Assembly (NCBI GenBank): GCA_949358305.1
Contig: OX442314.1
Span: forward strand, 55,127,369-55,191,368
Length of the DNA stretch: 64,000 nucleotides
Direction of reading: 5' to 3'
From: Strigamia acuminata
Taxonomy: Eukaryota > Arthropoda > Chilopoda > Geophilomorpha > Linotaeniidae
Position 1 is the stretch's first letter. Each line of letters begins with the position of its first letter. A program made the translations under genes and the position numbers. This document shows, piece after piece, positions 7,922-64,000 of the stretch. A model generated the notes under the pieces. It was not told where the DNA came from and searched no databases. It saw only the letters and a program-made list of their open reading frames with translations.

Positions 7922-7944
7922 GAATGGCGCAGACGGTCGAGAAG

Positions 7945-11055: not shown

Positions 11056-11080
11056 AGGTTAGAATCAGTTATTCAACTTG

Positions 11081-20581: not shown

Positions 20582-21485
20582 TATAAGGAAAGAATTATTA
20601 AAAATCACAGAAAAAATGCTGTGGTCGATACAATTGTGTGTAGAAAAATAAGATACGATCAAGTTTAAGTGTTGTTTAAATATTTTTAAGTTCTGAGCGC
20701 ACGCTGTTAAAGTCAACGACAGAATGATCCTTTTCGTTCAAACACTTGTTTATATAAGGGGTGACTTCCGGCGAACGTGTCGCAAACGTTCGCGATGGAC
20801 TTCTGGGAACGTATGACAAACGTTTCTGGTGGACTTCCGGAAACGTATACGCATGCGTCAAAATGTCGAAAATGAAATTCACTAACTTTTGGGTCGAGAT
20901 GGATTTTCCATTTTAATTAAATAAAACAAAAAAGAGTTGATGGAATCATGAAAATATTATGCCGGTTGTAATTAATTTGGCCGATAGATGGCGCAGTTGT
21001 GCCTGTGAGAATATGAAACGTTTTATCACCGCTTCAATAACTTAACAAGCGCTTGACCATTACCAGTCGGGAGATTCAAACAGAAATTACAATAAACTTG
21101 TTCTCAACCAAAAAAAAAATGCTTTTATTCCGCGAATTCAGAAAATCGTAAATATGTTCGAAATACCGGTTTAAAATTAAAGTGCAATGGGTTCCAAGTC
21201 ACGAAGGGTAGCAACTCGAATACCCATGCCAAATGGGTCGGACCGTGAGGAAGTAACCAGACAAGGGGATGTAACGGAATAGAACGAAGTTCTATGATGA
21301 TCCATCAGGGCAAAAGCCATTAAGGACAAAGGATTCTGTAAGAAAACCAGATTATTCTATAACCCACAAGAATTTGTTTTTAAGCCCACCGAAGAACCCG
21401 TGGGCACCATTAGTACAGTGATTGGTGATCCAAGTGCGCCCGACACTTCGGCCAATATTGTTACAACACCATAAAACAAGAAGTA
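20582..21485. other. Upstream region of FCP1-like gene, no other gene seen
   Basis: Contains two related stretches near 20763-20790 and 20794-20850 (each with GACTTCCGG or GGACTTCTGG, ACGT and CAAACGTT). These are possible promoter repeats of the phosphatase gene. The remainder is unrecognised. Confidence 0.35.
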
Positions 21486-24103: not shown

Positions 24104-25190
24104 TTAAACAATTTCCTTCAATCCAAATTGGGCGATCAATTCTTCGTGTTTTGGCTTAAAAAGCCCTTTGGTCAACACGTCGGCGACCATCTTCTCACTC
24201 TCCAGGAATTCTATGTCGATGTCCCCCCGCTCACATGTTTCTCGAACGAAATGGTGGCGGATGTCGATGTGTTTGGTCCTGGAATGGAAAATTGGGTTTC
24301 GCACCAATTTGTGTGCCCCCTGATTATCGCTGTAAATGAGGGTCGTTTCGTTTTTCTTGTTGATGTATTTAATTTCGTCTAGGAAATTCCGCAAGTAGAT
24401 TGCTTCTTTTGACGCGTCAGCTAAGGCCATATATTCTGCTTCAGTTGACGATGTTGCGACTGTCTTCTGCTTTCTTGCTTCCCAGCATATTGTTGCATTC
24501 GCGAGTTTAAAGCAGTAGCCGGTGTACGAGCGACGGTCGTCCAAGTTTGCTCCCCAATCTGCATCCGTGTAGCCGACTAAGTCTTTTCCGGTCTTTTCGA
24601 ATTTTAGCCCGAGATTCGATGAGTGCTTCAAATATCTTAGGACGCGTTTTGCTGCTGTCCAATGGGTTCCGGTGAAACACGTATTATATTGACTTAATGC
24701 GCTGACGGTGTAGGAAATGTCGGGTCGAGTGCAAACGGCGAGGTACATGAGTGATCCGATTAAACTTTGGTACGGGAACTTCTCTGGATCCAGTAGCTCT
24801 TCATCGGTCCCATCCTCCTTTTTCTTGTTTTTCTGCAACTTCTGATTTGCGTCGAGTGGAGTTGTGTTTTTCGAGCAGTCTTGCATTCCGAAACGATTCA
24901 GTATGTCCTTAACGTATTTTTTCTGCGCCATCGTGATTGATTTCGTCTTTTCGACCTGTTTAAACTCGATTCCCAAACAGTAGTGAATTTGTCCTAAATC
25001 CTTCATTTTGAACTCGCTCTTCAGGTTCGATTTTATTTTCTCCAGGTTTCTTTTGCAGTTCGTTGCGATGATAAAATCATCCACGTAGATTGCGACGAGC
25101 GTGATGACTTCTTCATTCGTTTGGTAATACACGCATGGGTCTGCGTTTGTTGGCTTCAGTCCGTGCTTTTGCAACTTCTCGTCCAGTTTT
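24104..25190 (-). pseudogene. Copia-type pol fragment (RT C-terminus and RNase H)
   Basis: A 356-residue open frame. It contains the Copia RT catalytic motif IYVDDFII, KDLGQIHYCLGIEF, the conserved SLIGSLMYLAVCTRPDI, RNase H GYTDADWGAN with SYTGYCFKL, STEAEYMALADA, and the C-terminal VADVLTKGLF. Translation upstream still reads WYKKLDEKLQKHGLKP, but a stop at about 25197 and unrelated DNA beyond show that gag, protease, integrase and most of RT are missing. The remaining frame is intact, so the truncation may be fairly recent. Confidence 0.9.
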
Positions 25191-25199
25191 TTGTACCAC

Positions 25200-27458
25200 T
25201 CCTATTCGTTCTAGAACCAACTCTCTTGACAGTTTCTTGATGATGCTTTTTTTTTTGTGACCCGCCATCGAGAAAACACCTCAAGGTCCCTGGAGAAACT
25301 GGCAGAGTTCCGCCGTCACTAGACACGTGGTCAGCTTGTCCATTGTCCAAGGTTGAAAAAATAAAGTGGGTAATGTTAATTGTGGAATTCATTCTAAGAA
25401 ACTAAGGTAGGTATTAGTATATTTGAGTAAAAAAAACGTTTGAAATAATTAAAAGTTTCCTTTTAATATAAGAACCGGAAGTGACGTAATCCGAATAGTA
25501 GCGCCATTTCCTGTTAAGCCGGAGATTACTGAGAGTGAACAACAGTTTTTACACAATTCCACAATAAATTCATTTTTTAAGATTCAAATTTGGCGCCATC
25601 TGTTGCCCAAAATTGATAGAGCGACCGGATTGGTTGATTTTATCGAGAGCAGCGGTTGATGGTGCCATCTTATGGTGCTGGTGTGTGTTTCATATTTATC
25701 GTTATTTTAATTTCGTTGGATGGAGTTATTTTTTTAACTTTCTGTGAATTTGGAATTTTTCTTTGCTTACTTCAAATTTTATTTGTTTCATTTCATTTTT
25801 ATTTTTATTTAGCTCGCGCGCAGAATTGTTGCGTCACATTCACGCAGTTTTGACGTCACATCATTTCCGGGCGATGGTCGCGGCGGAGCATTCGTCTCGC
25901 TGTTTCACGGTCGTCTCTTTTCCAATCCTTTTTAATTTGTTGCCATCCAAAATCCTTTCTCCTGAATTCCAATCGGTATGTCATCGAGTATTTATCAAGC
26001 GATGGATGGTGGTGTTTGGATTCCAATTTGTTGAGATTTTTCCGTTTTCATGTTCGGTGGTGCTAAGCCTATTTGGAATGCTCGTAAATATACTTGGCTT
26101 TGATTCAGTTGTTGGAGGTTTTACTTCTTTTAAATCGTTTTATTACCACAGTTTTCGAATTTCAGAGTTTCATCTCTAAATCATTTCGAATTTCAGTTTC
26201 ATCTCTATTTCATTTCGAAATTCGGAATTTACCTCTATTTCATTTCTAATTTCTCTTGTTTAAAGTATTTATTTGTAGGCTTGTATTTGTTTGCTGGCTT
26301 TTAATTTGTATGCAGCAACATTGACCACTCGCTGTCTAAACATGCAACACTGAGATTGAATTGTGACAAGATCTAACAAGTAAGTGCACTAATAATTTTG
26401 GTCTTGTTAGCCTGCATTCCGACGAATGTAGCATTTTCCAATTAACGTCCTGCCTTTATTTTCGGATGTTTAAGTGCAGACGTATTTTCTTGTCAAAAAG
26501 GCATTACTGCATCTGCAAGAGCAATTTTTCGAATTGGTTCATTTTAGCTATGTCATTTAATGTTTCCATTGTTTATTTTAGAATGCTGAAATGTTTGTCC
26601 ATTTCAGCTTTGTTTCCATATTTTTCTGCTGTAAAGATAGCACCAGGACAGTTATCACGAGCCATTTTGACGAGGTGTGAATGTGGTTTGATCGATTTTG
26701 TTGTTGATCTTCCTAGGATTATTTGGTTTGATCACAGCAGAATATTCTTTCGTTAAAAATTGTATAGTTAGTCTCTAATTATGTTTGTTTCAATTATTTA
26801 TTGGTATTATACAGAGTATTCAGTCATTTCGCTGCAGGTTGAATTTTGATTTGAATTTTAATTTATTTTAATTTTTGGTTTTTTATTTGACATGGTTTTT
26901 ATTTTCGATGTTAATAAGCAGAGGAGCAGCTGAAATGCATGCAGTTTTCTCATTTTTCAAAATGGAAGAAGTTCTCACCTGGTATTGTAGGCCTGCACTC
27001 AATGTGTGACTGTGAAAATGCATTTCTTACAATGAAAAGTGAATATGAAAAGTGAGTCGTTTGGAATTCCGTTCCTCAAGTAGGGTGTCTGGGCTTCTTT
27101 TAGTATATTGAGCTTTAAGCTGCCTCTACACAACAGTTTACTTGAAGAAACAAAAAGCATATTATTCAATTGTAACTTGTGGACAAGTCTAGGTTTGAAA
27201 TAGGGACTTGTGCTCCTTTGTAGGTTTTCTTGTCTACTGATAGTGGTTGAGGTATTATTGTTTATCAATTGCCGCAATTGACTTTAAACGTTTCTTCAGA
27301 CGTTTCTTTCGGGTAAATTTTATTATTATAATTTGAGAAATGACTCGAATGAATTAACGTAACTCTTTATTCAATCGGATAATCCCTGTTGGAAGTATCT
27401 GCATTCAAAGCTAAATATCAGTTTAAATAAATTCAACAGTTTACAATTAGATAATCAA
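25200..27458. other. No confident gene; possible CpG promoter near 25810-25920
   Basis: The block 25811-25910 is richer in CpG than its surroundings and holds a palindromic CRE/ATF site TGACGTCA at 25851, followed by ATGGTCGCGGCGG. It looks like a promoter and first exon, but I could not follow a coding chain. At 26160-26260 there are three degenerate ATTTCGAATTTCAG/CATCTCTATTTC repeats. Confidence 0.3.
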
Positions 27459-32040: not shown

Positions 32041-32090
32041 TCTTAGAGTCGTTGTAAACCCGAACCAACACGCACCACATTTACTTTCAA

Positions 32091-32693
32091 ATGGCGGAAA
32101 TTAACGAAGACGTAGAAATGCACGAAGAACAACTTGTTAAGAACGGCAACGATTCGCAGGTAGAAGAAATTAAAGTCCGGTCACGAGAAAGTGCAGAGGA
32201 AATGGCCAAATTGAAGCAACTGCAAGTGGACATTGAACTACTAAATCGTGGCGAATCTTCGGGTTCGCAATCACCGGTAATAGACGCGGCGGAGTCGGTT
32301 TCGCGATCCATCTACGTCGGAAACGTCGACTACGGGACGACGGCGGACGAATTGCAGCAACATTTCGTCGGATGCGGTGCGGTCGATAGAGTCACCATAA
32401 TGACCGACAAGTTCACGGGTCATCCGAAGGGATTTGCGTACATGGAGTTCGCCGATTCAGATTCGGTGGCGGTCGCTTTGGCCATGGACGAATCTCTGTT
32501 CAGAGGCAGAGCGATTAAGGTGTGCGCGAAACGCACCAACCGACCAGGAATTTATACGGCGACAAACCGGCCACCGAGAAGACAATATCGGGCCCCGTTT
32601 AGAGGCAGGGGCTCTCGATTTCGTCCGAATGCAAGAGGGGGTTATGGGCCCACTCGAAGACCTAGGACTCGATATTGGTCGTCGCCGTATTGA
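32091..32693 (+). CDS. Nuclear poly(A)-binding protein, PABPN1-like, intronless
   Basis: 200 residues. The family binds growing poly(A) tails in the nucleus, stimulates poly(A) polymerase and limits tail length. Seen here: an acidic N-terminus; a coiled-coil segment (about residues 25-53, including EEMAKLKQLQVDIELLN); one RRM at about 72-150 with RNP2 IYVGNV and RNP1 KGFAYMEF; the PABPN1 signature CDKF-like TDKFTGHPKGFAYMEF and ESLFRGRAIKV..KRTNRPG; and an Arg/Gly-rich C-terminus ending YWSSPY. It is shorter than vertebrate PABPN1 (about 306) and lacks the alanine tract. A TATA/Inr promoter and AATAAA near 32800 make a real gene more likely than a dead retrocopy, although the lack of introns fits an old retrogene. 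Confidence 0.88.
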   Translation: MAEINEDVEMHEEQLVKNGNDSQVEEIKVRSRESAEEMAKLKQLQVDIELLNRGESSGSQSPVIDAAESVSRSIYVGNVDYGTTADELQQHFVGCGAVDRVTIMTDKFTGHPKGFAYMEFADSDSVAVALAMDESLFRGRAIKVCAKRTNRPGIYTATNRPPRRQYRAPFRGRGSRFRPNARGGYGPTRRPRTRYWSSPY

Positions 32694-48532: not shown

Positions 48533-48646
48533 TTGGCGACGAGTGAATAAGTGGACGTGAGTAGACTGTGTTTGGTGTGCGGACAGAGTGTGGGAAATTG
48601 TTTTGAACTTGAGATCGCCGTTAGCGAGTGAGTCAGTGGAGCCAAG

Positions 48647-51600
48647 ATGGCGTCGCCCGTGAAGGTCGACGTGGCGTTAGCTAGTGCGAGTGCGGCGAAG
48701 CCGGTGTCGGCTGGATGGATGCAGGCGACAGGTATTTTGCCGTTTGATACACGTGATGAAGTGGCGACCCAAAGCCAGCGCTGGACTCGTTGGTTGGGCC
48801 GTTTAGAGAATTTTTTAGCGGCGGCCGGGATTTCCGATGATGGACAAAAGATGGCGATGCTGCTTCACTATGTGGGTGAAGATGTGTACGGCGTGTATGA
48901 GGCGATGCCGGTTAAAGGTACGACATACGAGACAACAAAGGATATTCTGACGGCACATTTTGCGCCGCTGAAAAATGAGGATTTCTGTATTTATTCGTTT
49001 CGTGCCAGTAAACAGGAGGCGACGGAGACTGTTGACCAGTTTTGTGCGCGATTGCGTGGACTTGCTGTGGGATGCGGCTTCACAGACCTGGATAAGGAAC
49101 TAAAAGCCCAGGTGATTTTTGCTACATCAATGTCGAAGTTGCGGCGCCAGGCGTTGCGAGCAACAAACTGGAAATTGAAAGAGCTGCTGGATGCGGCGAG
49201 AGGTTATGAGAGTTCTGAATGGCAGGCCAGGCGAATGGAGGAATCCGGGGGACGTGAGCGGTCGGTGGAGGTGAATGCGGTGAGAGGAGGTACGCCGAGG
49301 AGGGGAGATCGAGTCTCCAGCACGTTTAATAAGGAAGGAGGGCCCCCGAAATTGTGTTTCAATTGTGGGCGTGCCTGGCCTCATCGAGATGGAGTGTCGT
49401 GCCCAGCTAAAGCAATTAAGTGCCACGGATGCGGGAAGGTGGGCCATTTTATTAGGTTTTGTCGAACGAAGCCAGCCGGGAGTGAGCGGAAGACGGTTGG
49501 AGCAGTGGAAAAGGCGGTTCGAGCAATGGAAGTGACGGTTGGATCGGCGGAACGGGGCGTGGAGTTGGATGCGAGAGGATTCCCGATTTTTGGCATCACG
49601 ATTGGATCAGTTGAGGCCGAGCAAGGGATGCCGCAGGTTGAGTTGCTGATGGGCCGCTGCAGAATGAAGGTGATGTTTGGTGTCGATTCTGGCGCTCATG
49701 CGAATTTGCTGAGTCGGGAGTTTTTTAAATCGATTGTGCCGCCACCGGAATTAAGGATGAGTCGTACGAGATTAATGCCATATGGACAGACTAACCCTTT
49801 ACCATTATTAGGTGTGATGACAACGTTTTTAGAGTATGATGGGCGAAGGACGTTGACGGATGTGTACGTTGCGGACGTGGACGGTGCCTCGTTGTTGAGC
49901 TGTGAATCGGCAAAGGAACTGGGATTGATTAGGATGGTTCAGACTATGAAGGAGGGTGGTATGAAGGAGGAAGTTGTGGCTAAATACCCTGAGCTGTTTC
50001 GTGGAGTTGGTAAGTCGAGGAATCACGTAGTTCATCTACACGTGGATGAGGCGGTGGCGCCTGTGGCGCAACGTTATCGACCGATACCCTTTAGTTTGAG
50101 AGGCCGAGTAGAGCGGGAGTTGGATCGGATGGTCGCGGAAGGGATTATCGAGAAGGTTACGGAGGAGATGGGTCCGACGCCGTGGGTGTCACCCATTCAC
50201 TGTGTTCGAAAACCCAAAGACCCCGACCCTGACGCCATCCGAATATGTATTGACGCGCGCGAGCTGAACTTTGCAATTCAGAGAGTGCGCCACACTTCGC
50301 CAAGGTTAGAAGATCTGACCACGCTGGCGGAAGATGCGACGGTTTTTACGAAGGTCGATATGGCACACGGGTTTCACCAGTTTGAGCTGGACGTAGTGTC
50401 GAGGATTTTGACCACCTTTGCGACACACGTTGGGCTTTATAGATTTTTGCGCTTGTTTTTTGGGCTAAATTGTGCCCCCGAGATTTTCCAGGATTTAGTG
50501 CGACAGATTTTGGAAGGACTGGCTCAGGTATTGAATATTATGGATGACATTTTTATAGTTGGTAGGAAGACAGTAGACCATGATGTGGCGGTATACGCAG
50601 TGTTGGATCGATTGATGAGCGAGGGGTTGACATTGAATCTGCAGAAGTGCGAGTTTAGGAAATCAGAATTGGTATTTTTTGGACATGTTTTTTCGGCTAG
50701 GGGTATTGCGGCGGATCCGAGGCGAGTTGACGCGATTAGGGCGATGAAGACGCCTTCCAGTGTTTCGGACGTTAAGAGTCTTCTAGGAATGGTGGTATAT
50801 TGCGGTCGTTTCATCCCGAGGTTAGCGGACTGGACAAAACCGTTAAGAGAGTTGACAAGGAAGGCGAATAAGGATTTTGAGTGGACTGAGGGGCACCAGA
50901 TGGCGTGGAATGGTATTATGAAGGAATTGAGTGATGGAAAGGTTATGGCTTATTTTAGTTCGAGTGCGAAGTTACATCTGACGGTGGACGCAAGCCCCAT
51001 TGGTTTGGGAGCAATATTGGCCCAGGAGAAGGAAAGGGAAGGAGTGCAAGTGATTGCGTATGCAAGTCGTGCGTTGTCGGACGTTGAAGGCCGCTACTCG
51101 CAGATCGAACGCGAGATGTTGGCGGTGGTCTGGGCTATGGAGTTTTTTTATTTGTATTTATTTGACAATTTTTTTGTGCTGTTCACAGACCACCAACCAC
51201 TGGTGAGCATTTTGAAGAACCGGAGAGCACGACCATCGGTGCGTCTGGAGCGTCTTTGCTTACGGGTACAACATTATAAATTTGAAGTGAGGCACACCAG
51301 AGGTAGCACGAACCCGAGTGACTATTTGTCACGACATCCGTTACCAGGAACGAGCGAGATTGGAGTGGCGGTGGTTGAGATGTTGGAGGGGCATGTGGAT
51401 TTTGTCGTTCAATCACGGATTCCGGCTACAATGACGATGGAAGAAGTGTTGGGTGAAACGGAGTCGGATGAGGTGTTGAGAAAGGTGCGCGCGGCGTTGA
51501 GTAGTGTTGGCGAGGAAGCGCGAAAGCGTTGGGAGGATGGGCAGCTGCGACCTTATGCGGTGCTGAAGGAAGAATTGTCCATTTCGAAGAGCGGAATACT

Positions 51601-52924
51601 TTTACGGTCAGATCGAATTGTGATTCCTGAGAAATTGCAGGCGAGGGTAGTGGAATTGGCCCATAGGGGACATCAGGGTGTAGTGAAGACCAAGTCGTTG
51701 CTTAGGCAAAAGGTTTGGTTTCCCGGCATTGATAAGCGGGTGGAGGAGAGAATTTCGAGGTGCATGGCGTGTCAGGCCACGGTTCCGCAGACGCGGAGGG
51801 ATCCATTGGTGATGACGGTGTTACCAGCGGGACCGTGGCAGCAGTTGGCGGTCGATTTCGCTGGCCCTTTTCCGGACGGTACGTTGCTTTTTGTGTTAAT
51901 TGACGAATTTTCGAGGTTCCCTTTTGTGGAGGCCGTGACATCGACGGCAGCATCAGTGGTATGCCCGATATTGGAAAGACGATTTCTGGAGCAGGGGTTG
52001 CCGTGTTCGGTTAAATCAGACAATGGTCCCCCCTTTACGTCGCGAGAATTCGCAGAGTTTTTGGCCGGTTTCGGGGTTCAGCATCGCAGGGTTACTCCCC
52101 TATGGCCGGAAGCGAATGGTGAGGTTGAGAGGTTTATGAGGACGATAAACAAGACGGTGAGGGCAGCTAATGTAGAAAATAGGCCGTGGAGACGTGAGTT
52201 GAGCGAGTTTCTTTTAAACTACCGGGCCACTCCGCATGTGACGACAGGAAAGTCGCCGGCGGAACTTTTGCATGGGAGGGTAGTAAGAACGCGGTTGCCG
52301 GCGATTTGGGAAGAGGTTGAGGATTTGCGGTTACGTGAAAGGGATTTAATGGAGAAGGCGAAAATGAAACGATACGCCGATAAACGTCGAAATGTGAAGA
52401 GTCATGAGTTGAAGGTTGGGGATCGAGTGTTGGTAAAGCAACCAAAAGTAAATAAGTTCTCTGCGCCATTTGATCCCGTGCCGTGGGTAGTGTCCGGGGT
52501 GTCGGGGACTCAGATTACAGCGGTGAGAGGGGGTCAGCGGACTGTGCGAAACGCGTCCTGCTTTAAGCTAATTTGGGCGGAGGAGAGGAAGGAAGTTGGT
52601 GGAGCAGTGGGGGGAGTTTCCGGTGTGATGAGTGGTGAGGGTGGAGGTGACTGGGACGAGGAGTTGAATTTGGACGGTGAGGTGACGCAGTCGGAGGAGG
52701 AGGCAATGCAGTCGGAGGAGGAGGCAAACCTGGATGAAGGGGTGGTGCAACAAGAGGAGGCGCCGGTGTTGGATGGTGAGGTGCAGGAAGAGATACAACG
52801 ACCCGCGACACCAGTACGTCAGCCCGAGGCCCAGGCGTGGGATCGAACGGGATTAAGGAAGTCAACTAGAACGAAGAAGCAGCCGGGATGGCAAAATGAT
52901 TTTCATATGAATTTTATTGTTTAA
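48647..52924 (+). CDS. Gag-pol polyprotein of the intact Gypsy element
   Basis: 1425 residues in one frame, ATG at 48647 (GCCAAGATGG, a good start context). Gag with two zinc-binding clusters at about 236-275 (CFNCGRAWPHRDGVSC, then CHGCGKVGHFIRFC). Protease VDSGAHANLL (about 346). RT with NIMDDIFIVG (about 631), Met replacing the usual Leu/Ser before the DD pair. RNase H TVDASPIGLGA (about 779). Integrase HHCC finger (about 1003-1044) and D, D, E in AVDFAGPF, SDNGPPF and NGEVERF. The C-terminal tail is Glu-rich with repeats of QSEEEA. No frameshift separates gag from pol. Confidence 0.95.
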   Translation: MASPVKVDVALASASAAKPVSAGWMQATGILPFDTRDEVATQSQRWTRWLGRLENFLAAAGISDDGQKMAMLLHYVGEDVYGVYEAMPVKGTTYETTKDILTAHFAPLKNEDFCIYSFRASKQEATETVDQFCARLRGLAVGCGFTDLDKELKAQVIFATSMSKLRRQALRATNWKLKELLDAARGYESSEWQARRMEESGGRERSVEVNAVRGGTPRRGDRVSSTFNKEGGPPKLCFNCGRAWPHRDGVSCPAKAIKCHGCGKVGHFIRFCRTKPAGSERKTVGAVEKAVRAMEVTVGSAERGVELDARGFPIFGITIGSVEAEQGMPQVELLMGRCRMKVMFGVDSGAHANLLSREFFKSIVPPPELRMSRTRLMPYGQTNPLPLLGVMTTFLEYDGRRTLTDVYVADVDGASLLSCESAKELGLIRMVQTMKEGGMKEEVVAKYPELFRGVGKSRNHVVHLHVDEAVAPVAQRYRPIPFSLRGRVERELDRMVAEGIIEKVTEEMGPTPWVSPIHCVRKPKDPDPDAIRICIDARELNFAIQRVRHTSPRLEDLTTLAEDATVFTKVDMAHGFHQFELDVVSRILTTFATHVGLYRFLRLFFGLNCAPEIFQDLVRQILEGLAQVLNIMDDIFIVGRKTVDHDVAVYAVLDRLMSEGLTLNLQKCEFRKSELVFFGHVFSARGIAADPRRVDAIRAMKTPSSVSDVKSLLGMVVYCGRFIPRLADWTKPLRELTRKANKDFEWTEGHQMAWNGIMKELSDGKVMAYFSSSAKLHLTVDASPIGLGAILAQEKEREGVQVIAYASRALSDVEGRYSQIEREMLAVVWAMEFFYLYLFDNFFVLFTDHQPLVSILKNRRARPSVRLERLCLRVQHYKFEVRHTRGSTNPSDYLSRHPLPGTSEIGVAVVEMLEGHVDFVVQSRIPATMTMEEVLGETESDEVLRKVRAALSSVGEEARKRWEDGQLRPYAVLKEELSISKSGILLRSDRIVIPEKLQARVVELAHRGHQGVVKTKSLLRQKVWFPGIDKRVEERISRCMACQATVPQTRRDPLVMTVLPAGPWQQLAVDFAGPFPDGTLLFVLIDEFSRFPFVEAVTSTAASVVCPILERRFLEQGLPCSVKSDNGPPFTSREFAEFLAGFGVQHRRVTPLWPEANGEVERFMRTINKTVRAANVENRPWRRELSEFLLNYRATPHVTTGKSPAELLHGRVVRTRLPAIWEEVEDLRLRERDLMEKAKMKRYADKRRNVKSHELKVGDRVLVKQPKVNKFSAPFDPVPWVVSGVSGTQITAVRGGQRTVRNASCFKLIWAEERKEVGGAVGGVSGVMSGEGGGDWDEELNLDGEVTQSEEEAMQSEEEANLDEGVVQQEEAPVLDGEVQEEIQRPATPVRQPEAQAWDRTGLRKSTRTKKQPGWQNDFHMNFIV

Positions 52925-53465: not shown

Positions 53466-53631
53466 CTGCAGAGATTTAATTTTATTTTATTTCATTTCAT
53501 TTCATTTACCGTATTATCCCGCTTTAAGCCGCATGCAGTTGTACACACCGGTATAAGTGAAAAGGCTGGTTTTTCTGTTATTTTTTTTTAATTAAAAGAG
53601 CTCGGATAAATAATTACATGTACTAAGATAA

Positions 53632-53770
53632 CTCCTGTATCAATAGTAATTGATCAGCCCATTGCGTAATCGCCCTGGGCGCTATCTGGTGGGTGTTATT
53701 GAAACTGACAATGTAAACATTGCGCTAGGAAGAGGCGGCCGGCACACGGCACGAACCTAACCGCGTAACA
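53632..53770 (-). repeat. LTR fragment, copy 3 of the family at 36217
   Basis: Minus-strand start TGTTACGCGGTTAG at 53770. Shares GTAATTGATCAGCCC, TGGTGGGTGTTATTGAAACT and GCGGCCGGCAC-type blocks with copy 1. It lies in the last-known intron or 5' part of DCTPP1, downstream of the BEL/Pao fragment on the same strand. Confidence 0.65.
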
Positions 53771-54434
53771 ATATGCTCGGGGTATCCTTCAAAAAGTGTG
53801 CGCTGCTAAGAAAATTGGAAAAAGCATATTTATAGTTTATAGTTTGTATTTATAGTTTAAAAGCATATTTAAAACTTGGCTTTAACTCTAACTTGCATAC
53901 ACGAATTTCTGAATCCACTTCTAAAGTTGCAATGACCATTCCCTGGTCTTGCTTCTTGTCTAAACGTAAACTTGAAACTAATTTCTCTCCATCGTTTATG
54001 CCTGGCGGTCGGTTGGTAGACTCGAATTTAGCCCTTACATTGTGTATCTTTCGATGTTGCAGAAACATTCCCATTCTCTTTCACGAACTTTTTGACTGCA
54101 GAAACTGTTACTCCATGTTTGAGCAACAACATAGTATTGTCTCTAATCTGTTCTGTGTCCGAATTATTTCAATAGGATTAAGTGAACAATGATACGTAGG
54201 CAGACGCAGCACTTTAAATCCTCACTCTGTGGCTCTTGAGTCGTTCATAAATGCTGCTACAACTAGTGAGATAAAAAGAAGATTAAAGTAAGAAAACTTT
54301 AAAATTTAAAAATTGATACCCGCAGTAAGTCAGCCTTGATGTAATTTTCTTCAAAATAAGCGTCGTGGGCAACACACCATTTCTGAATGTATGACGATAC
54401 ACTAACCCTAGACAACCATGGCAATAAAGAATGT
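53771..54434. other. Decayed repeat DNA, no gene seen
   Basis: Between the LTR fragment and the BEL/Pao pol fragment. Probably remnants of the same retroelement, but no domain is recognisable. Confidence 0.35.
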
Positions 54435-55088
54435 CTATCCTAAACTGTGTATCTGTGTGTTTTGTATTTGTATTATACTCAACCACTCTGGTCCCTCTTG
54501 CCAAAAAAGATTATTAGTCAGTTTCTGCATCGTTACACCACGAGTCACCAGATCCGCTGGGTTCTCCTTGCCAGGACAATGGCGCCAGCAATCCTTGTCA
54601 GTCGTTTCGCCGATTTCTTTCACTCGGTTGAAAACGAATGTGACCGGTCTATTTTTGGTTTCTCTCAACCAATGTAAAACAATTTTTGAATCTGTCCATA
54701 ATGTAACGCGACTAGGTCCGAGTGTTAACTGTAATATTGGTACTAAGCGAGCTGCAATGAGGACACCCATTAACTCTAATTTCGGCAGTGTTAGCTTTTT
54801 CAATGGGGCCACGCGACATCTAGAAATGACAAATTGAGTATTAATAGTTTTTGTTTCTTTATTTGTCACTCGAGTGTAGGCGACCACGCCATACGCACGA
54901 GGACTCACGTTGCAAAAAATTTGAATCTGTCGCTCTTCTAAATCATCTCCCCAATTAAATAATTGCCTTGGAAAAGACAAACATTTAATTTCTGGCACTT
55001 GATTGTACCAGTCCGATCAGATTTTTCTCACATTTTCTGGGATTTCTGTATTCCAACCCAAGTTTAATTTCCACAATTGTTGGAAATA
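54435..55088 (-). pseudogene. BEL/Pao pol fragment (RNase H region)
   Basis: The frame shows LWKLNLGWNTEIPENVRKI, an in-frame stop near 55022, then PRAYGVVAYTRV, CRVAPLKKLTLPKLELMGVL, VTLWTDSKIVLHWLRE and WRHCPGKENPADLVTRG. These are the motifs of the BEL/Pao RNase H segment (VAPLKKLTLPRLEL, TDSxxVLxWL, NPADLxSRG). Protease, RT catalytic part and integrase are absent. Confidence 0.88.
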
Positions 55089-55229
55089 AATCTTTGCAAA
55101 GACGAGAAGTATGAATTTTCTGTTTTAAAAAGGTTGAAATCTTGCTGTTGTTCTAGTTTACTCGGGGGTTTGTATGTGATAGTGTTTCTACTTCTTTGTT
55201 GGGAAGTTTGAAAATTGGGATGGACTACA

Positions 55230-55365
55230 CGTCACGTATCAGGTGTCTAATTCTCCTTTTTCACCAAAACTCAGTGTCAGGCGTTAGATGTCAGGTGTCA
55301 GGCCCCTGACTATTCCGGCTGACACCTGACAGTTAGTCAGGTGTCAGGTGTCCGTAGTCGATTGA
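55230..55365. repeat. GTGTCAGG cluster
   Basis: Repeated short GTGTCAGG and complementary CTGACACCTGAC motifs, able to form small hairpins. No gene. Confidence 0.6.
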
Positions 55366-55369
55366 CTTT

Positions 55370-55665
55370 TACCGTGTAAAAATTGATTTTTTTGCGCGTT
55401 AAAACTGCCTTTTGTCAAAGTAGGAAATATTATTTTTTTTCCATTTTAATTTTTAATGTGTTGACTTCATAGAGAGAACGATTTTTGGGAGAAAACTGAA
55501 TCCGTGTACCGAGCTAGCAAAATGGTTTACAATTCTTATTTTCTGTTCTAAAAAAATAGAAATTTGCCAAAAATAATTTCATTTAAAAACAAAAAAAACT
55601 GTCCAAATAATGGAAAATAAAAATTTGGCCATTTTTCTATTTTCCATTTTCCAATTGAATTTAAA
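55370..55665. repeat. Dispersed repeat, partner of 31374-31650
   Basis: Same block order as the copy at 31374, including GAGAGAACGATTTTTGGGAG. The left edge keeps two degenerate units of the 21-bp minisatellite. Confidence 0.8.
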
Positions 55666-55750
55666 CAAAGTAATGAGAAAGTGGGAACTGAGTGGTGCAG
55701 GAATATCAGGGAGTTGAGTTGTGGACATCAGTTCGTGAATAAAGATTTAC

Positions 55751-55936
55751 AAGCGAAGAAGTTTGAATGCAAAAATTACTGTGAATAGAAAACCTTTCGT
55801 GACATAGTATGAAAAGAATGTTTATTCACGAACAGTTTAGTTCGTGAATAAACATTTACACTGCTCCATTCTTTTCATACTATGTCACGAAAGGATTTCT
55901 ATTCACAGTAATTTTTGCATTCAAACTTCTTCGCTT
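55751..55936. repeat. Long hairpin: 70-bp inverted arms with a nested inner hairpin
   Basis: 55751-55820 and 55867-55936 are reverse complements with one mismatch. The 46-bp spacer holds a second inverted pair (TTTATTCACGAAC / GTTCGTGAATAAA). A further AGTTCGTGAATAAA lies just outside at 55731. No coding capacity. It ends about 190 bp before the donor of the non-coding first exon of the channel gene. Confidence 0.92.
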
Positions 55937-56125
55937 GATGTTTACATATACATTAAAATTGTGCACTGAATTAATCATATGTAAACACTGCATTGAAATG
56001 TCTCACGGTATATTTACACTTCTTTGCAAAAATGACATTTCAATAGAAATCCAGTTAATTCAAATTGATTCGCAGTTCCAGCAATTCATCTGACAACTCG
56101 CAAGTCGCAACCTGCTACAATACAG

Positions 56126-56195
56126 GTAAGAAATTCAAATAATCTTTTGAATTTAAAATATTGGGTTATGTGTGCTGTATACCAACATTGAACAG
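56126..56195 (+). other. Probable 5' UTR intron of the DEG/ENaC gene
   Basis: Donor ATACAG|GTAAGA at 56125/56126 and acceptor TTGAACAG at 56195, 66 bp before the ATG. Both fit the consensus. Confidence 0.5.
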
Positions 56196-56261
56196 CACTT
56201 TATTCCGACTTTCGATTTATTGCTTCATTTTTTACGCAATATAGCGAGAAAAATAAGCACA

Positions 56262-59200
56262 ATGGGTGAACACAAACTTCTTCGACCATTTGAAGGACCA
56301 TTTGAAGGAATTCGTCGACGTCGAGAAAGAAAAATTCGATACGTCGTTGGCAATGTGTTTGCAGAGCAATCAGAAATTCCAGCATTTATCAAATCACTGG
56401 TAAACATTTCAAAAAAGAAAAGAAAGATGTCCATTCTATTTTTCACATTACTCATTGAAAATTTGGGAGTGTGTTTTTTCCAAACTGAAGAGCGAATTTT
56501 GTATTACATGAGCGAACCAACAATAGTTGATGCATATTTAATTGATACTGGACATCGCTCTTTCCCACACGTTTACATTTATCCGGATACAACACCAGCA
56601 TATCGAAATTTTATTAAAGGAAAAGCAGGCTACAGAATTATCGTACAAGGCTGTGATGGATTCAATGATCTGTATTGGCAATATTCAATTCCAATGCCAG
56701 AAATTCTAAAATATTTGAGTATACCTGGCTACATAACTGATGCCCACTTTACGATGGTAAGTCTTCATTTTCCATTTCTATTCACCAATAACTAAGCAAA
56801 TGCTTTTACAGGGAAAATTACGCAGTAATCTTACAATTAAAAACCTTCTTACTCTTCTTGAGCCGGTTACTCAAGTTTCAAGCGGCAAGTTAGCAAAATT
56901 AAAAAATACATGCTTTATTATCAATGTTCCTTTTTCTCTAGAGGTCACACTTCCATTTGGAAATGTTAATTACAAATTAGTAGTCAAACTAAAAATTCCA
57001 AAGCAGTGCAGATTTTTTAAAGTAAGTCATTAATTTAGCAGAATTTATTCAAATAAATATTTCTGCTTGTCTCACCAAATATTGAATTAATCAAACTATT
57101 TTGCAGATAATCAGAATTTTTTATAAAACTTTTTTATAATTCTCTTTACCAATGTTACATCATAACAATTACTGATAATTTCTGTATTTGGTTGGAAACT
57201 TGAAACACTTGTTGCACCATTATTCCTTTTGTTTTCATTAGATTTAAATAAAACGTCTTTTACTTTAAAGGAAAGGAGTGTCGAATGCACACTGCTAGAA
57301 ATAATCAGAGAAAAAGAGGTGTAAAAGCATTACCGGTATACACCTTTTCAAAATGTGTAATATCTAAAGTTGTGTTAAAATGTTTAATTGGGAAAAGTAA
57401 AAGGCATCAAACTTAAAAATATGTAAGCAATGGAGTTCATTGACACCTACTTTCCTGCAAACCATAAGACATTCAGAAAATATCTTTAGTATCCTAAATT
57501 CAAGTATTTAATTTGTAAACACATCCAAAGTATGATTTCGTTTGGTCACTAATTTGTTCAATTATATTTCTTAAACTTCACTTTTATTTGCACAAATAAC
57601 GTGATTAGACAATGCATTCCCTGTCATGTAATAATAATTTCTTACAGAAGACGGAAAACATGAGAGGGAAACTAAAAAAAAAATTAATTTTGTAGTGGAA
57701 TTGATGTTGTTTTATTTTTTCTTCAAATTTAAAGGTATTAATACATCCATTACCAGTAGGACATCTTACATATGAAGAACCAGTTGAAATGCCATTGGAA
57801 CATGACGGACTACCAATTAATAATGTTGCTATAACTACTGTGCTAAAAGTAAGACATGTTTGTTTAAAACATACGGAGTACAATTTAACATTTAACAATA
57901 TCAACTACCGAATGTCAAATACCAAATATCAATTAACAAATACCAAATATCAAATATCAAACACCAAATACCGGTATTTACCAATACAAGAGCATACAAA
58001 CCTATAAATGTCAGGCAATATAGAAGTTTGATGACACGAAATTTTTAAACCATGTGACTGTTTGGCCACCCAAGAGTAACTTGCGTAACTGCCACACATT
58101 GCCCAGGGGTATGACCCAGTGAGGGTTGGAGGGAGCTGACTGGTGCTGGGAGAAGAGAGTATGAGAGCGACCACCGTAGAGAGAGAAGAGCGCTGGGTCT
58201 CAACCGAGACAGGTGTGTGTAAGAAAGGTCTTGAAGCCAGCAAGGGCAGTCTTGCACTGTGCTGACTCTGCTCTCTTCCCCATTCACCATTGCAACGCTC
58301 AGTAGTATGACGATGGGTCCGCTACAGCCACCATGAGCGGCTGCATGTGTCGGACAGGTGAGTTCGACAGTTTGGTTATGTTTTACCGATCTCGTCATAC
58401 CTGGGGTTTGCGCCCTGTGTGTGACGGGTCGGTTGCCGGTGTGACGTGTCTGCATGGCACTGCCAACACGTGAGTAGACAGGAGTCTCCAACCTCTAGAT
58501 AACAGATTAAAGGCCAACAACTAACTATCTAGAATTTCTTGGAGTCACAAACCATGGTAATCAGTCCACAGGCTACCATGGAGAAGACCATACCTGTCAC
58601 AACCACTTTAGTCCAAATGTGGTATTTGTTTATGTGAGTTTTGGGGCTTGTTTATGGCTACTTTTGGTGTTTCCAAGAAAAATAAAACGATAAAAACAAA
58701 ATTTGAACGCACCAAATGTAAAACTAAAAAAGAAGTAGAAAACCTTTGACCGCTTGGTCAACCACTGTGACCTGTGACACTCCATACACTGCCCAGTGGT
58801 CATCCCCTTTCACAGGATAGAGTGACCCAGCTAGAGAAGGAGGGAGCCGAGTGGTGTGGTGAGAGAGGCGGAGCTGAGGGAGCAGAGAGGAAGGACGTGC
58901 TGTAGAGAGAGAGAACATGTGTACAACGAAGGCCCTAAACTCCGGCAAGGGCAACCATGCTTGTTGCCGACTCTGCTCCTCTCACCATTCACCACTGTGA
59001 CACTCAGTAACATGGCGATATGCCTGTTGCAGCCTCCATGAGCGGATACAGTACATGGGTTGTACAGGGTACATATGACAAAATGTCCGTTAGTGACCGA
59101 CAACGTCACCTGGGTGTGACGGGTCGGTTGCTGGTGTAGCGTGGCTAACAGCACTGCCACACATGAGTAGATGGGAGACTGCGACCCCTATTCACGGATT

Positions 59201-61982
59201 AAAGGCCAAAACCCAACAATCAGGAGTCCCTATCTCAATCATTTACATGAGTATGCGTCTCTCCTATGGTAGTCAATCCTTAGACTGCTGTGGGTAAGAC
59301 CATACCAGTCACAAACTGTTTGCCAATCCCCACATCCAAAAATGTTCATTTTTTCCACGTTTTTTAGAACATGCTTATTTTGAAGCTGCGATAATTTGGT
59401 GGGTGTGTCTCTGCAAGCTCTGATTCCTTGCGACAAGGTGTATAACTAGTCATTCTTAAAAAATTTAACAAAAAATAAAATTTACTTTTATTAATAGAAA
59501 CACTATTGATCATGAAATTTAATACACCCAATATTATCAAGTTGTAAATTTTCTTTCAGTCTATTCAATTTGAGTAATATTCATACCGGTAATATCTAAA
59601 TTCATGTTTCAGTATAACTTCATCAATACAAAACGAAATCCTTGTGATGACAATTTGATTGACTGCTTGCGTCTTTGCCTCTTGAAACTTATTAGTTGCA
59701 GGTACACGTATTTTTAATTTATCAACAACCTAACACAATGTAACTGCACTTATTTTTATAGATATCCATTTTATGAAACAAGATACCTGCCAAAATGCAA
59801 TGACACTTACCTAAGAGACCAATACCAAATGTTGATAGACTTTAGTCGTGAAACCGCCAACCTAATAAAACATTGCAAATGTCTCGATGTATGTGAAGTG
59901 ACAAAACTAAGCATAACCTACGAAGAATTGCCTAGCTCTGAGACTATCCTCGATGTAATCGTTGTAAATAATTATGAACGAACATTGCAAGAACGTGTTT
60001 TATATGACATAATCTCTTTACTGTGTGACATTGGTGGAAACATTGGACTCTATTTCGGCATGTCCTGTTTGACACTCGTCCACATATTTATTCACATCTG
60101 CAAAATGCCCTTTATGAAGTTCAGAACAATGACAAAGGCAAATTCCAAGTGGAAACACAAAATTCAGAAAATTCTTGGAAAAAATCAGAAAAAACGAGGC
60201 AAATCTTTCCGCCAACAGAAACTGAAAAACTCGGTTTTTCTAATTCTCATACTCATGTCAGTTTACAATGTCTACAATCAAATTGTGACTTATTTTGACT
60301 TTCCACTCGTCAAAACTGTTAGTCTCATAAGAGATGACATTATCCATTTTCCACTCATTGGCAGTTGTCCAGATACTGACAGAATATATGAGGCTAAAAA
60401 TGTGTTAGCTGAAACCCTTGGTAGAGATTGCCATAATTACCAACTCTTTGACTTACTCCACCCTTCATCTGAATTTGTTAACAATTCACTCAAACTATGG
60501 AAGGCCTCTAAGGACAATAAAGGAAAATACTTATCTGATTTACATGGAATGTATCTGTGGAGCGATGTATGCGATTGAACTTTTAAATCACCCAAAAATA
60601 ATCAGAATTCTCTTTTGAGTGGCACTCTCTTTCTAGTACAAGCTTCCACCGCTTGGTAAGGTGTCCTAGGAACCCATCTGCATCAGCCTACCAGCTTTTC
60701 ACAACAACTCCTGTTGATACATTGATGCAGATCGGTTACTAGAACACTCACCTAACAGGGAAGCTTGTACTAGAAGGGATATGCTCCCCTGCCCTACGCA
60801 GAAGAAAATTCTCATAATTGTTGGTTACCCCTTGTATTTGTAAATAATCTTTGACTCCATATCATTCCTCAATATCCTCATTTAACTCTGTTTCTTAATA
60901 ACACAATTTCTTTTACAGTATAAAATAACAGACTCTAAGGTTATATCCATATCATATTTGTCAACAATATTTGGAATGTGTACAGTGTTTAAAAAAGGTG
61001 CAAAGAATTACCAAAATACAAATACTCTTTCTCTTTCACTTTTATATGTTTACAGTTAATGAGACATATTTTCCAAAGAAAAACGGTGTGCGGTTTAAAG
61101 ATGGAATCAAGCTTTTTGGAAAAAACTGCAATGAACATCAACCAGTGAGATCTTTTGTGAATTCAATTCTCAAAATAACGTTTATTATTATTTTTTTGTA
61201 TTCATTGTAGAACTTCATTTTGCCGCAAAATCAATTTTTTCATCCTAAACACATTTTTTACACGTATCGTAACCACAACATTAAAATCGATTTTTCGCGT
61301 CAAACGGTAGAATTTCTGCTCATGGTAAACTCACTGGTCACTGCTATTTGCTGAATTTGTTATTTTCAGCTAATTCGAGTAAATACTCCCAAAAGTCACT
61401 GTCAAGCAAATCAACTTGCTACCAAATGTGAGCAGAAATGTTTCAAAACCAAGCTCGACGAGCAATCATTCTCATGCAAGTGAGTTTTTTAAATTAATTT
61501 CACAGATTCCTTTGTACGTCCACAGCATCAAAAACTATGAATTTCAAGCTTACTAAATAAAATCCAAATTGATGCTTAGCTGAATAAATCATTATTCATT
61601 TACACAAATGCACTGACCCTATACATTCAATTCTGTTAGATTACCGTTTATGGAAAACAATTTGTTACCTTATTGCGAGGATCACATAACAGCTAAGAGA
61701 ACTACCAAACATTATTTGGAAACTCAATTCAAGACAGATCCTCAGAAAGACTGCTCATGTGCACCACGCTGTGAAGAAACAATATTTTTACCTTTAATAA
61801 TTAAAGAAAGTGGCACACCCAGTTCACCATACGACGTTCAATACGCAATTGACAGCAACATCCGAGAAGTAATAGAAGAACAGAAAGTAATATTCCTTGT
61901 CAAATTGCTCTGTCAAATTGGATCAATTTTTGGTATTTTGACCGGTCTTTCAATATTTGCTTTCATTGAACATTTTATTTGA
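56262..61982 (+). CDS. Tandem DEG/ENaC (pickpocket-type) channel: two subunits in one chain
   Basis: Nine exons join in frame to 777 residues: 56262-56756, 56812-57021, 57735-57848, 59613-59701, 59762-60566, 60919-60997, 61056-61144, 61370-61479, 61640-61982. DEG/ENaC subunits are two-pass sodium channel subunits that work as trimers. Unit 1: TM1 about 56-74 (MSILFFTLLIENLGVCFF), post-TM1 FPHVYIYP, a short extracellular part ending CKCLDVCEVTKLS, TM2 about 386-416 (LLCDIGGNIGLYFGMSCLTL, GMS filter 402-404). A basic linker (417-458) runs, within one exon, into unit 2: TM1 about 460-480 (VFLILILMSVYNVYN), FPLIGSCP, CSCAPRCEETIF, and TM2 751-777 (LLCQIGSIFGILTGLS, GLS filter). Both extracellular domains are shorter than usual. 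The exon set is inferred from consensus sites. Confidence 0.8.
57895..57990. repeat. Degenerate CAAATACCAAATAT short repeat
   Basis: About 90 bp of imperfect 7- and 14-bp units in the same intron. Confidence 0.7.
58050..59235. repeat. Two diverged tandem copies of a ~500-bp repeat in a channel intron
   Basis: 58050-58560 and 58740-59235 share, in order, CACTGCCCAG/CATTGCCCAG, GGAGGGAGC, AGAGAGAGA-type runs, CATTCACCA, AGTA-CATGG/ATGAC, CCATGAGCGG, GTGTGACGGGTCGGTTGC, CACTGCCA, ACATGAGTAGA/ACGTGAGTAGA and ATTAAAGGCCAA. The period is about 670 bp. Class unknown. Confidence 0.8.
60629..60777. mobile_element. 149-bp MITE in channel intron
   Basis: Inverted ends TTCTAGTACAAGCTTCC on both sides. 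Similarity continues to TCTGCATCA about 55 bp in (left CCATCTGCATCAG, right in complement CGATCTGCATCAA). No coding capacity; target duplication not clear. Confidence 0.75.
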
Positions 61983-62058
61983 TTCAATAGTTCAGAAAAT
62001 CACAATTTAAATTTACAATCCTTTTTATAATTCCTGTGCTGTCCTAACTAAAGTCCAT

Positions 62059-62420
62059 GAAGAATTACTGCACACATAAAGCAAAGCGTGACCTTTATTC
62101 AGTCGTATACACGAGTTTATTTATTCGCACACACGATATCGTACAAACCACACGTTATTGTAACGTAACCGGAAGTCCCGTTACACGAGCTTGGTCCGCG
62201 AGATTATACTCCAACTCCCCTGGCGGTGGAAACCCTCATTCGGGATTTATAGACATTGGAGCCAGGTGTCTTAAAAGAACTAGACACACCTTCACCTGAT
62301 CAATTTGTAAAACTCATAAGAAATCCCTCAAATTGTAATCTCAAAATTAAGCACAAATAAAGACAAAAATACACTTGTAATGCAGCAAATGAAAAGATTA
62401 ATAAAATACACTTATTTTAA
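62059..62420 (-). repeat. Copia LTR (3') of the second Copia fragment
   Basis: On the minus strand, GGTGGAATA is followed by TGTTTTAAAATAAGTG at 62420; the probable end is GCAGTAATTCTTCA at 62059. Inside are TATAAATCCCG (about 62253) and GAATAAAGGTC (about 62097), in the right order for promoter and polyadenylation signals. Confidence 0.6.
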
Positions 62421-62880
62421 AACATATTCCACCTTGGTTTGAACACCAGCAATGCTTCTGCAATGTTACAGCCTTCGTTAGCATATCCGCGATCATCTGA
62501 TCGGTTCCGGCGTGCAGCAATTCCACTTCTTCGTTCTCGATCTCATCTTTAACAAAACAGTATCTTAAATTGATGTCGGTGTGCAGTCGTGCAGCAACTC
62601 CCATCAGTTTGCTCAATCCCAGCTCTTGCATGAACTTCTTGAACTTCTTTCCTCTTTTACTGCCTCGCTAATGGCGATGAACTCGGATTTGCAGCACGAC
62701 GTTTGTTTTGACGACTTCCAAACTATTCCGGCTCCTGACAGCAAGAAAACGTATCCGGTGGTCGATTTTCCATCCTCTGTGTTACAGTTCCAGCTTGCGT
62801 CAACATACCCCATCATCTGGTCCTCGTTTCACCCAAATTGTAATTTTTTTTTTTCGTCTCCTTCAAATACCCTAAAATTT
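62398..62880 (-). pseudogene. Copia-type pol fragment 2 (RNase H)
   Basis: Reads GYLKETKKKNYNLGETRTR, then GYVDASWNCNTEDGKSTTGY, VFLLSGAGIVWKSSKQ, SEFIAISEAVKE, and, in another frame, LHTDINLRYCFVKDEIENE, HAGTDQMIADMLTKAV. This is the Copia RNase H and C-terminus, with a frameshift near 62635. It is a different family from the fragment at 24104. Confidence 0.85.
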
Positions 62881-63116
62881 GCTTTCCCATCTTCTAGCCA
62901 CGAGAGTGACTGGCCGCGTTGCTATTGTAGTGACGATGGCAATTACGATCGTGATGGCAATACCAATAACTGGCGAGGTCGCTGCAAGGCACGGCGTGGT
63001 ATAGAGATAACCGACCACGCTGCCCATGCGGCCCTCGGCCACGTGGTCAGCGGTTATTTAAAATTTATCTCCAGGTAAAAAAAATCTGCAGAATTCTGCA
63101 GGAAAATTGCTAGTTA

Positions 63117-63432
63117 GGGGCCGTCCATAAATTACGTAACGCTCCAAGGGGGGGGGGAGGGGGTTTCAGATTTTTTTACGGGTCATTAGTAAGGGAGAGG
63201 GGGGGGGGTTCTCAATAATGTTACAGTCCTTGAAAATTTTTTTTTTAATGTTTTAAAATTGAAAATATCGCAGTTTTGAGACTGATTTTTGAAAATTTTT
63301 GGGGGGGTGATTTCAGTTTTATTACGTAATTAGGTGGGTGGGGGTTTGGGAATTTGTTACGGCCTTGTTACAGAGGGGGGGAGGGGGTCTAAAATGCCCA
63401 CAATTGGCGTTACGTAATTTATGGACGGCCCC
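63117..63432. mobile_element. 316-bp MITE, PIF/Harbinger-like
   Basis: 26-bp perfect inverted ends starting GGGGCCGTCCATAAATTACG, flanked by TTA on both sides (63114-63116, 63433-63435). A 3-bp TTA duplication with GGG-starting ends fits PIF/Harbinger. The interior is G-rich, with long G runs. Confidence 0.8.
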
Positions 63433-63540
63433 TTAACTCCCAGATGGTCAATCTCCAAAGACGACGCTTTGGTGCCCACAATGCACCTATTTGGGTGCAA
63501 AATAATTTTTAAAAAAAGGCCCGTAGCTGAAGCGCTTTAA

Positions 63541-64000
63541 ATTGTTAGAAACATGGTGGACATGCTTTATAGTTAAAGTTTGTAGTTACAATTTACATAA
63601 AAATGTTTAAATATTAACAATTTTTTATTTCAAACAGTTATTCTTTTTAGATTATTCAATTGGTGAAAAAATGTTGCCAAATCAGCAGAATCAATAATAT
63701 TACTCATGATACGTCCATGTCTACTTGACCAAACATTCTTCTTCTTCTTGTCTCCTACATTTGACTGTTGTTTTTTCCTCGGATTCAAACTTTCCTCTTC
63801 CGAATCCGACTTCCGTCTCTTATTCTTAACTCCTTGTCTCACCCGCGCAATGTCTTCATCGGTAAACTGGATGTCCAGAAGTGGTTTTAAGCTTGGCAAA
63901 ATTTTATTTCCTCCAGTTTCAATAAAAGAAAACAGCATCTCGTCCACTTTATGCCAACGTTCAGCACAACACCTCAACCAATCTGGGTTCACCACGTGCA
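63541..64000 (-). CDS. Second FCP1-like phosphatase copy, C-terminal part, runs off the window
   Basis: The last 121 residues match the copy at 19241-20581 closely: VNPDWLRCCAERWHKVDEM, IQFTDEDIARVRQGVKNKRR, the Lys run, and ATFFHQLNNLKRITV. Differences include amino-acid changes (for example NLNV/NSNV-type) and whole-codon deletions only, so the frame is kept. The stop is at 63630. The shared DNA continues about 90 bp past the stop (63541-63629). Confidence 0.85.

Follow-up and report, generated by a model that had tools for sequence, protein, structure and literature searches.

A gene with two DEG/ENaC channel units in one reading frame, and a large family sharing its fused exon, in the centipede Strigamia acuminata

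Results

Gene structure at the locus

The window, that is, the whole stretch of 64,000 nucleotides of Strigamia acuminata DNA analysed here, contains a gene at 56262-61982 on the forward strand that encodes two units of the DEG/ENaC channel type, A and then B, in one frame. Examination of 53500-64000 gave a model of ten exons and 815 amino acids, in which all introns are GT-AG and the phases are consistent. The coding sequence starts with an ATG at 56262, which has an in-frame stop 108 nt on its 5' side, and ends with a stop codon at 61980-61982, directly after the second transmembrane segment (TM2) of unit B. The length of 777 residues given for the product in the original prediction was too low. 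The features of the gene are as follows.

56262..56756, forward strand: exon 1, with the start codon, the cytoplasmic N-terminus, TM1 of unit A, and the start of ectodomain A
about 56427-56483, forward strand: TM1 of unit A, within exon 1
56812..57021, forward strand: exon 2, ectodomain A (GT-AG, phase 0)
57735..57848, forward strand: exon 3, ectodomain A
59613..59701, forward strand: exon 4, ectodomain A
59762..60566, forward strand: exon 5, the fused exon, with the end of ectodomain A, TM2 of A, the linker, TM1 of B, and the start of ectodomain B
60009..60101, forward strand: TM2 of unit A, with GMS at 60057-60065
60102..60230, forward strand: basic linker of 43 aa between TM2 of A and TM1 of B, expected to be cytoplasmic
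60231..60299, forward strand: TM1 of unit B, within exon 5
60348..60368, forward strand: FPLIGSC, the post-TM1 motif of unit B, within exon 5
60919..60997, forward strand: exon 6, ectodomain B
61056..61144, forward strand: exon 7, ectodomain B
61211..61324, forward strand: exon 8, ectodomain B
61370..61479, forward strand: exon 9, ectodomain B
61640..61982, forward strand: exon 10, with the Cys-rich end of ectodomain B, TM2 of B, and the stop codon
about 61887-61967, forward strand: TM2 of unit B, with GLS at 61944-61952, within exon 10

The two units meet in exon 5 (acceptor ...ttatttttatag, donor gtatgcga). As had been predicted, its frame is open throughout, running from TM2 of unit A with GMS through the linker into TM1 of unit B and then FPLIGSC. 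Hydropathy analysis with 19-residue windows gave four segments at the expected places (residues 56-74, 397-415, 461-479, and 785-803), the second corresponding to TM2 of A, with GMS at 402-404, and the third to TM1 of B; two weaker segments lie within the ectodomains (199-217 and 577-595). The basic linker (KMPFMKF...QKLKN, residues 417-459) has 43 residues, close to the 42 or so first estimated, and FPLIGSC (residues 499-505) is found where the original prediction had placed it. A second CSCAPRCEE motif and a second TM2 with GLS, which later exons had been expected to supply, are both in exon 10. Each ectodomain comprises about 300-310 residues in the gene model. A single-sequence structure prediction of exon 5 had a mean pLDDT of 37.4, too low to be informative.

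A repeat occurs twice in intron 3 (57849-59612), at a distance of about 0.7 kb; the copies have diverged and match at 73-76% over three pieces. A similar translated stretch was noticed by eye at another locus described below, L055, and the repeat may thus be a dispersed element. Several other sequences were recorded in the window. An intronless open frame of 498 aa at 19241-20737 on the reverse strand, which we take to be FCP1-like, has NIF phosphatase and BRCT domains (Pfam), and what looks by eye like a nearly identical C-terminal piece of it, with no Pfam match of its own, lies at 63630-63998 on the same strand; the two suggest putative amplified retrocopies. Long retroelement frames are present at 48632-52924 (forward), with reverse transcriptase, RNase H, and integrase domains, and at 3755-11058 (reverse), which is Ty3-like by eye. 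Fragments at 24104-25201, 54435-55016, and 62398-62828, all on the reverse strand, resemble Copia and Pao/BEL polymerases by eye. A single-exon frame with one RRM domain at 32058-32693 (forward) resembles, by eye, a nuclear poly(A)-binding protein and is perhaps a retrocopy.

Each half is a DEG/ENaC unit

The two halves were each recognised by PF00858 (ASC) when taken alone, with 46.7 bits for unit A (residues 1-418) and 28.3 bits for unit B (residues 458-815) against a cut-off of 23.6. In a sequence search, residues 12-357 of the 358 in unit B aligned with residues 70-409 of BRTNaC1. Unit A aligned with both PDPNaC1 and BRTNaC1, and PDPNaC1 is its best solved relative by sequence. Matches to protein A and other soluble proteins were taken as chance. 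The ectodomains had been called unusually short. They are short beside those of ASIC and ENaC, which are longer, but the chains of BRTNaC1 and PDPNaC1 are short too (431 and 421 aa), and the description holds only for the first comparison.

The sequence motifs of the family are present in part. A post-TM1 motif of the FPxxxxC type is typical of DEG/ENaC units; TM1 of B is followed by FPLIGSC in the window gene and by [FLI]PxxxxC in all nine other fused exons examined, and unit A has FPHVYIYP in the corresponding position, which lacks the Cys. The His-Gly that typically precedes TM1 in ASIC and ENaC is absent from residues 1-55 and from the linker of the window protein. The pore motif is GMS in unit A and GLS in unit B of the window gene. 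Across paralogues, GxS was found in 28 of 28 A units (27 GMS and one GVS) and in 13 of 15 B units (12 GLS and one GFS, the other two having SLS and GLF). A Cys 11 residues before the pore motif was common to all of these 28 A units and 15 B units; this position is occupied by a small residue in ASIC and degenerins. The rule of one TM1-ectodomain-TM2 unit per chain is broken by the window gene, which has two such units in one frame and thus departs from the canonical one-unit DEG/ENaC subunit rather than being a plain member of the family.

Hundreds of loci share the join

A search of the same genome with exon 5 as the query found at least 142 loci (of 1481 first-look candidates) that matched most or all of the exon with E ≤ 5.1e-67. 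The matched stretch was free of stops in 138 of them and contained a stop in four. The use of a diverged member as a second query raised the number to at least 157 distinct fused-exon loci of the window type. When the matches of two further queries, L043 and L045, were merged with the 157, at least 330 loci were obtained in which the match spans TM2, linker, and TM1. Each search scored about 150 candidates, and 330 is thus a lower bound apart from possible alleles. Only stop-free matches of the L043 and L045 queries entered this count: 20 of 150 rows of the former were dropped as partial or containing a stop, and 51 of 145 matches of the latter were taken (43 of them new), the others being judged already counted, partial, or interrupted by a stop. 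A stop was present in some match at seven of the 330 loci, all of them among the 157 (four with the first query and four with the second, one being shared). The letters themselves were examined for part of the 330, namely exon 5 in L002-L042 and in the window (overlapping sets) plus nine distant fused exons.

The other ends of the gene are similarly abundant, with at least 150 loci each for exon 1 and exon 10 as queries, and they tend to lie in the expected order. Among the matches listed, 116 of the 157 fused exons have exon 1 as the nearest upstream neighbour within 25 kb, 133 have exon 10 downstream, and 106 have both. Adjacencies in the expected order (exon 1-exon 5-exon 10, per strand) numbered 249, against a mean of 77.7 and a maximum of 98 in 1000 label shuffles. 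The remaining fused exons mostly have no neighbour within 25 kb among the matches listed, as lists of limited length would produce; unexpected neighbours were an upstream exon 10 in 11 fused exons, an upstream exon 5 in three, and a downstream exon 5 in three. A start codon with an upstream in-frame stop was common to all 15 distinct exon-1 models of the family (16 rows, of which L018 repeats L028 and is truncated at the locus edge). The automatic gene models were rough: seven of 20 ten-kb loci were complete in ten exons, and of these L026 alone lacked internal stops. The comparison across genes was therefore limited to exons 1, 5, and 10. With the same join in many paralogues, the expected exon order, and purifying selection where measured (below), the two-unit reading of the original prediction is well borne out, and a single-gene oddity is ruled out by a join that is family-wide.

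Other arrangements were looked for within the family. One-unit genes were suggested by eight exon 1-exon 10 adjacencies within 25 kb, of which L041 and L042 were examined. A diverged fused exon is present in each, and the model of L041 has stops in exon 2 and early in exon 5. No three-unit gene was seen. Fifteen of 17 terminal exons of unit B end where that of the window gene does, directly after TM2, and those of L039 and L034 extend 4 and 16 residues further, respectively. Three exon 5-exon 5 adjacencies were found, 13-23 kb apart. At C6:1766109, 1784500, and 1797762, three fused exons with identical scores lie 13-18 kb apart and are probably very recent tandem copies.

An assembly error or a pseudogene was considered as an explanation, since stops are present in four of 142 copies. 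In addition, at least five of the 330 loci are on unplaced scaffolds (C141, C68, C95, C32, and C50) with scores equal to that of a chromosomal copy, and these copies may be alleles. Such an explanation is contradicted by the recurrence of the join at hundreds of distinct loci and by dN/dS values of 0.17-0.54 across exon 5, and we regard it as extremely improbable.

Distant fused subfamilies and one-unit relatives

With a stretch of PDPNaC1 as the query, the terminal exons matched fell into two classes according to the length of their open frame. Nine of the 12 such exons examined (L043-L049, L053, and L054) continue past a linker to another hydrophobic segment followed by [FLI]PxxxxC, and are only distant relatives of the window gene. 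The other three (L050-L052) end shortly after TM2; L052 (C9:12033000-12034050) is an apparent one-unit terminal exon with GFC instead of GxS. An exon of this kind, ending after TM2, could come from a one-unit gene or could be the B end of a fused gene. Downstream of L045, L055 (C4:12048900-12051550) supplies a terminal exon of its own, which carries TM2 and a stop and has GMC in unit B; this subfamily therefore looks two-unit as well.

Matches of this query also form two tandem clusters. None of the 18 listed at C9 11.54-12.04 Mb has an open frame longer than 212 aa, and none of the 15 listed at C10 4.62-5.02 Mb has one longer than 196 aa. In the C9 cluster, 12 of 17 gaps between neighbours are 1.9-3.0 kb, and among the matches listed none of the 330 fused exons lies there. 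From the short frames, the C9 spacing, and the lack of fused exons there, both clusters appear to consist of one-unit DEG/ENaC genes, an assignment based on open-frame lengths and three terminal exons of one-unit type on C9 and C10. We would guess that candidate partners for the fused proteins are to be sought among these genes.

Selection on the linker and the transmembrane segments

All 26 representative exon-5 sequences have a linker of 36-44 residues with a net charge between +9 and +16. The positive charge is what the positive-inside rule asks of a cytoplasmic segment. A cytoplasmic linker is also topologically natural, because in the DEG/ENaC family both the end of TM2 and the start of TM1 lie on the inner side of the membrane. 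Selection was estimated after exclusion of 14 of 40 aligned rows (locus repeats, identical copies, and stops). The linker has a mean pairwise identity of 0.52 and a dN/dS of 0.50, similar to the ectodomain parts of exon 5, with identities of 0.51 and 0.46 and dN/dS of 0.45 and 0.54. All dN/dS values come from a simple pairwise method and were pooled across pairs that are not independent of one another (261 for exon 5). The linker is thus under purifying selection. TM2 of A is the most constrained part of the exon (dN/dS 0.17), and TM1 of B gave 0.33. TM2 of B, estimated from 17 sequences, had a dN/dS of 0.27, a weaker constraint than that on TM2 of A.

A basic linker invites the question of whether the fused precursor is split into two ordinary subunits at a fixed 1:1 ratio, by cytosolic cleavage, ribosomal skipping, or internal initiation. 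At least one Met is present in 23 of the 26 linkers, as internal initiation would need. The remaining three have none and there is no common start, which argues against an internal start for unit B as a family-wide device. The skipping motif NPGP is absent from the window protein. Furin acts in the lumen and could hardly reach a linker that is expected to be cytosolic. Splitting of the precursor is accordingly improbable in our judgement, and we favour a chain that is used whole.

The values for TM2 also bear on whether both units line the pore. One unit alone might conduct, with the other serving as a regulatory or anchoring domain outside the pore, and the looser motifs of B (GLS in 12 of 15, compared with GMS in 27 of 28 A units, and GMC in L055) point in that direction. 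The purifying selection on TM2 of B and the invariant Cys 11 residues before its motif point the other way, and such a division of labour seems very improbable. The looser TM2 of B, together with SLS and GLF in two of 15 units and GMC in L055, nevertheless implies that B may be modulatory in some members.

A fusion older than the family expansion, and probably a single one

A tree built from the terminal domains places 27 A units in one clade (support 100/97) and 16 B units in another (100/99), indicating that the fusion is older than the expansion of the family. Eight A units from other subfamilies fall with the A clade at moderate support (86/72), a placement that would fit one old fusion without proving it. 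L044 was excluded from the tree, in which the deep branches are long. The terminal unit taken from L055 was placed beside a one-unit row, and no inference was drawn from this placement on long branches.

Discussion

The analysis points to one protein with four transmembrane segments, in which unit A precedes unit B and the tail of A would pass straight into the pre-TM1 segment of B. With the linker in the cytoplasm and the chain used whole, A and B would be adjacent and would probably occupy two of the three places in a DEG/ENaC trimer. The third place would be taken most simply by a one-unit subunit, or else by a unit of another chain. We consider it rather likely that the gene encodes such a covalent double subunit, with A-B in two places, a third unit from elsewhere, and probably a sensory function. 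That a covalent pair would force the stoichiometry, as originally predicted, is a sound inference. Two is not a factor of three, however, and the data therefore do not prove that both units belong to one pore.

The main competitor to this arrangement is a twin-pore channel, in which three fused chains with six units form two linked trimers, A3 and B3. The separate clades of A and B are as expected if each unit keeps a homotypic interface, and a linker of 36-44 residues is long enough in principle. Fused proteins assembled in this way could, however, also tie trimers together into chains or nets, and additional control would then be required. The stronger constraint on TM2 of A than on that of B (0.17 versus 0.27) does not suggest equal pores. 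We regard the twin trimer as unlikely, and prefer the double subunit completed by a third unit.

Judged by analogy with other arthropods, in which expansions of this channel type have been associated with chemoreception, such a double subunit most likely serves as a sensory receptor whose A and B units always occur together. More tentatively, the family may constitute a sensory repertoire of more than 300 loci derived from one ancient fusion, in which fixed A-B pairs are completed by one shared one-unit partner; we put this forward as a possibility that we ourselves doubt. The arrangement would resemble that of insect odorant receptors, in which variable receptors are combined with a common co-receptor.

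We take the two-unit form to be a new architecture within an established channel family, and its scale is the most striking thing about it. Among the titles and abstracts listed from the open-licence literature, none described DEG/ENaC proteins with two units; automatic annotations with two ASC domains may exist in protein databases. In the genome paper of S. maritima, sodium transport is among the functions enriched in lineage-specific duplicates, and its main text contains none of the terms ENaC, pickpocket, degenerin, amiloride, and sodium channel. The natural occurrence by the hundred of double subunits whose unit number does not divide three makes it testable whether a covalent pair recruits a third unit or six units form twin trimers. 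It also suggests a very large, unrecognised family of candidate sensory receptors in a soil predator.

The closest solved relatives are channels of myriapods. BRTNaC1, the broad-range thermal receptor 1 (PDB 8ymw and others), is described as trimeric (PMC12804983). It is similar to unit B over nearly the whole length from TM1 to TM2 and is similarly short per unit, and differs in having one unit per chain. PDPNaC1 (PDB 9jf7), a proton-gated channel from the antenna of the centipede Scolopendra, is described as a homotrimer of antennal sensory neurons (PMC12714832). It is similar to unit A by sequence and likewise has one unit per chain. ASIC and ENaC share with the window protein TM1, a Cys-rich ectodomain, TM2 with GxS, and PF00858. 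They are described as trimers with one unit per chain (PMC10148893). Neither unit of the window protein has an HG before TM1. Expanded ENaC sets of arthropods have been linked to chemoreception; an example is the spider mite set (Ngoc et al. 2016, as cited in PMC7738191), and ENaCs are treated there among the chemosensory receptors.

Two units in one chain are also found in the two-pore-domain K+ channels, dimers of which complete a four-fold pore. The fused proteins of S. acuminata differ in that two units cannot complete a three-fold pore. Engineered concatemers, the usual means of studying subunit stoichiometry in the DEG/ENaC family, likewise join units in one chain; they are artificial laboratory constructs, whereas the double subunits described here are natural.
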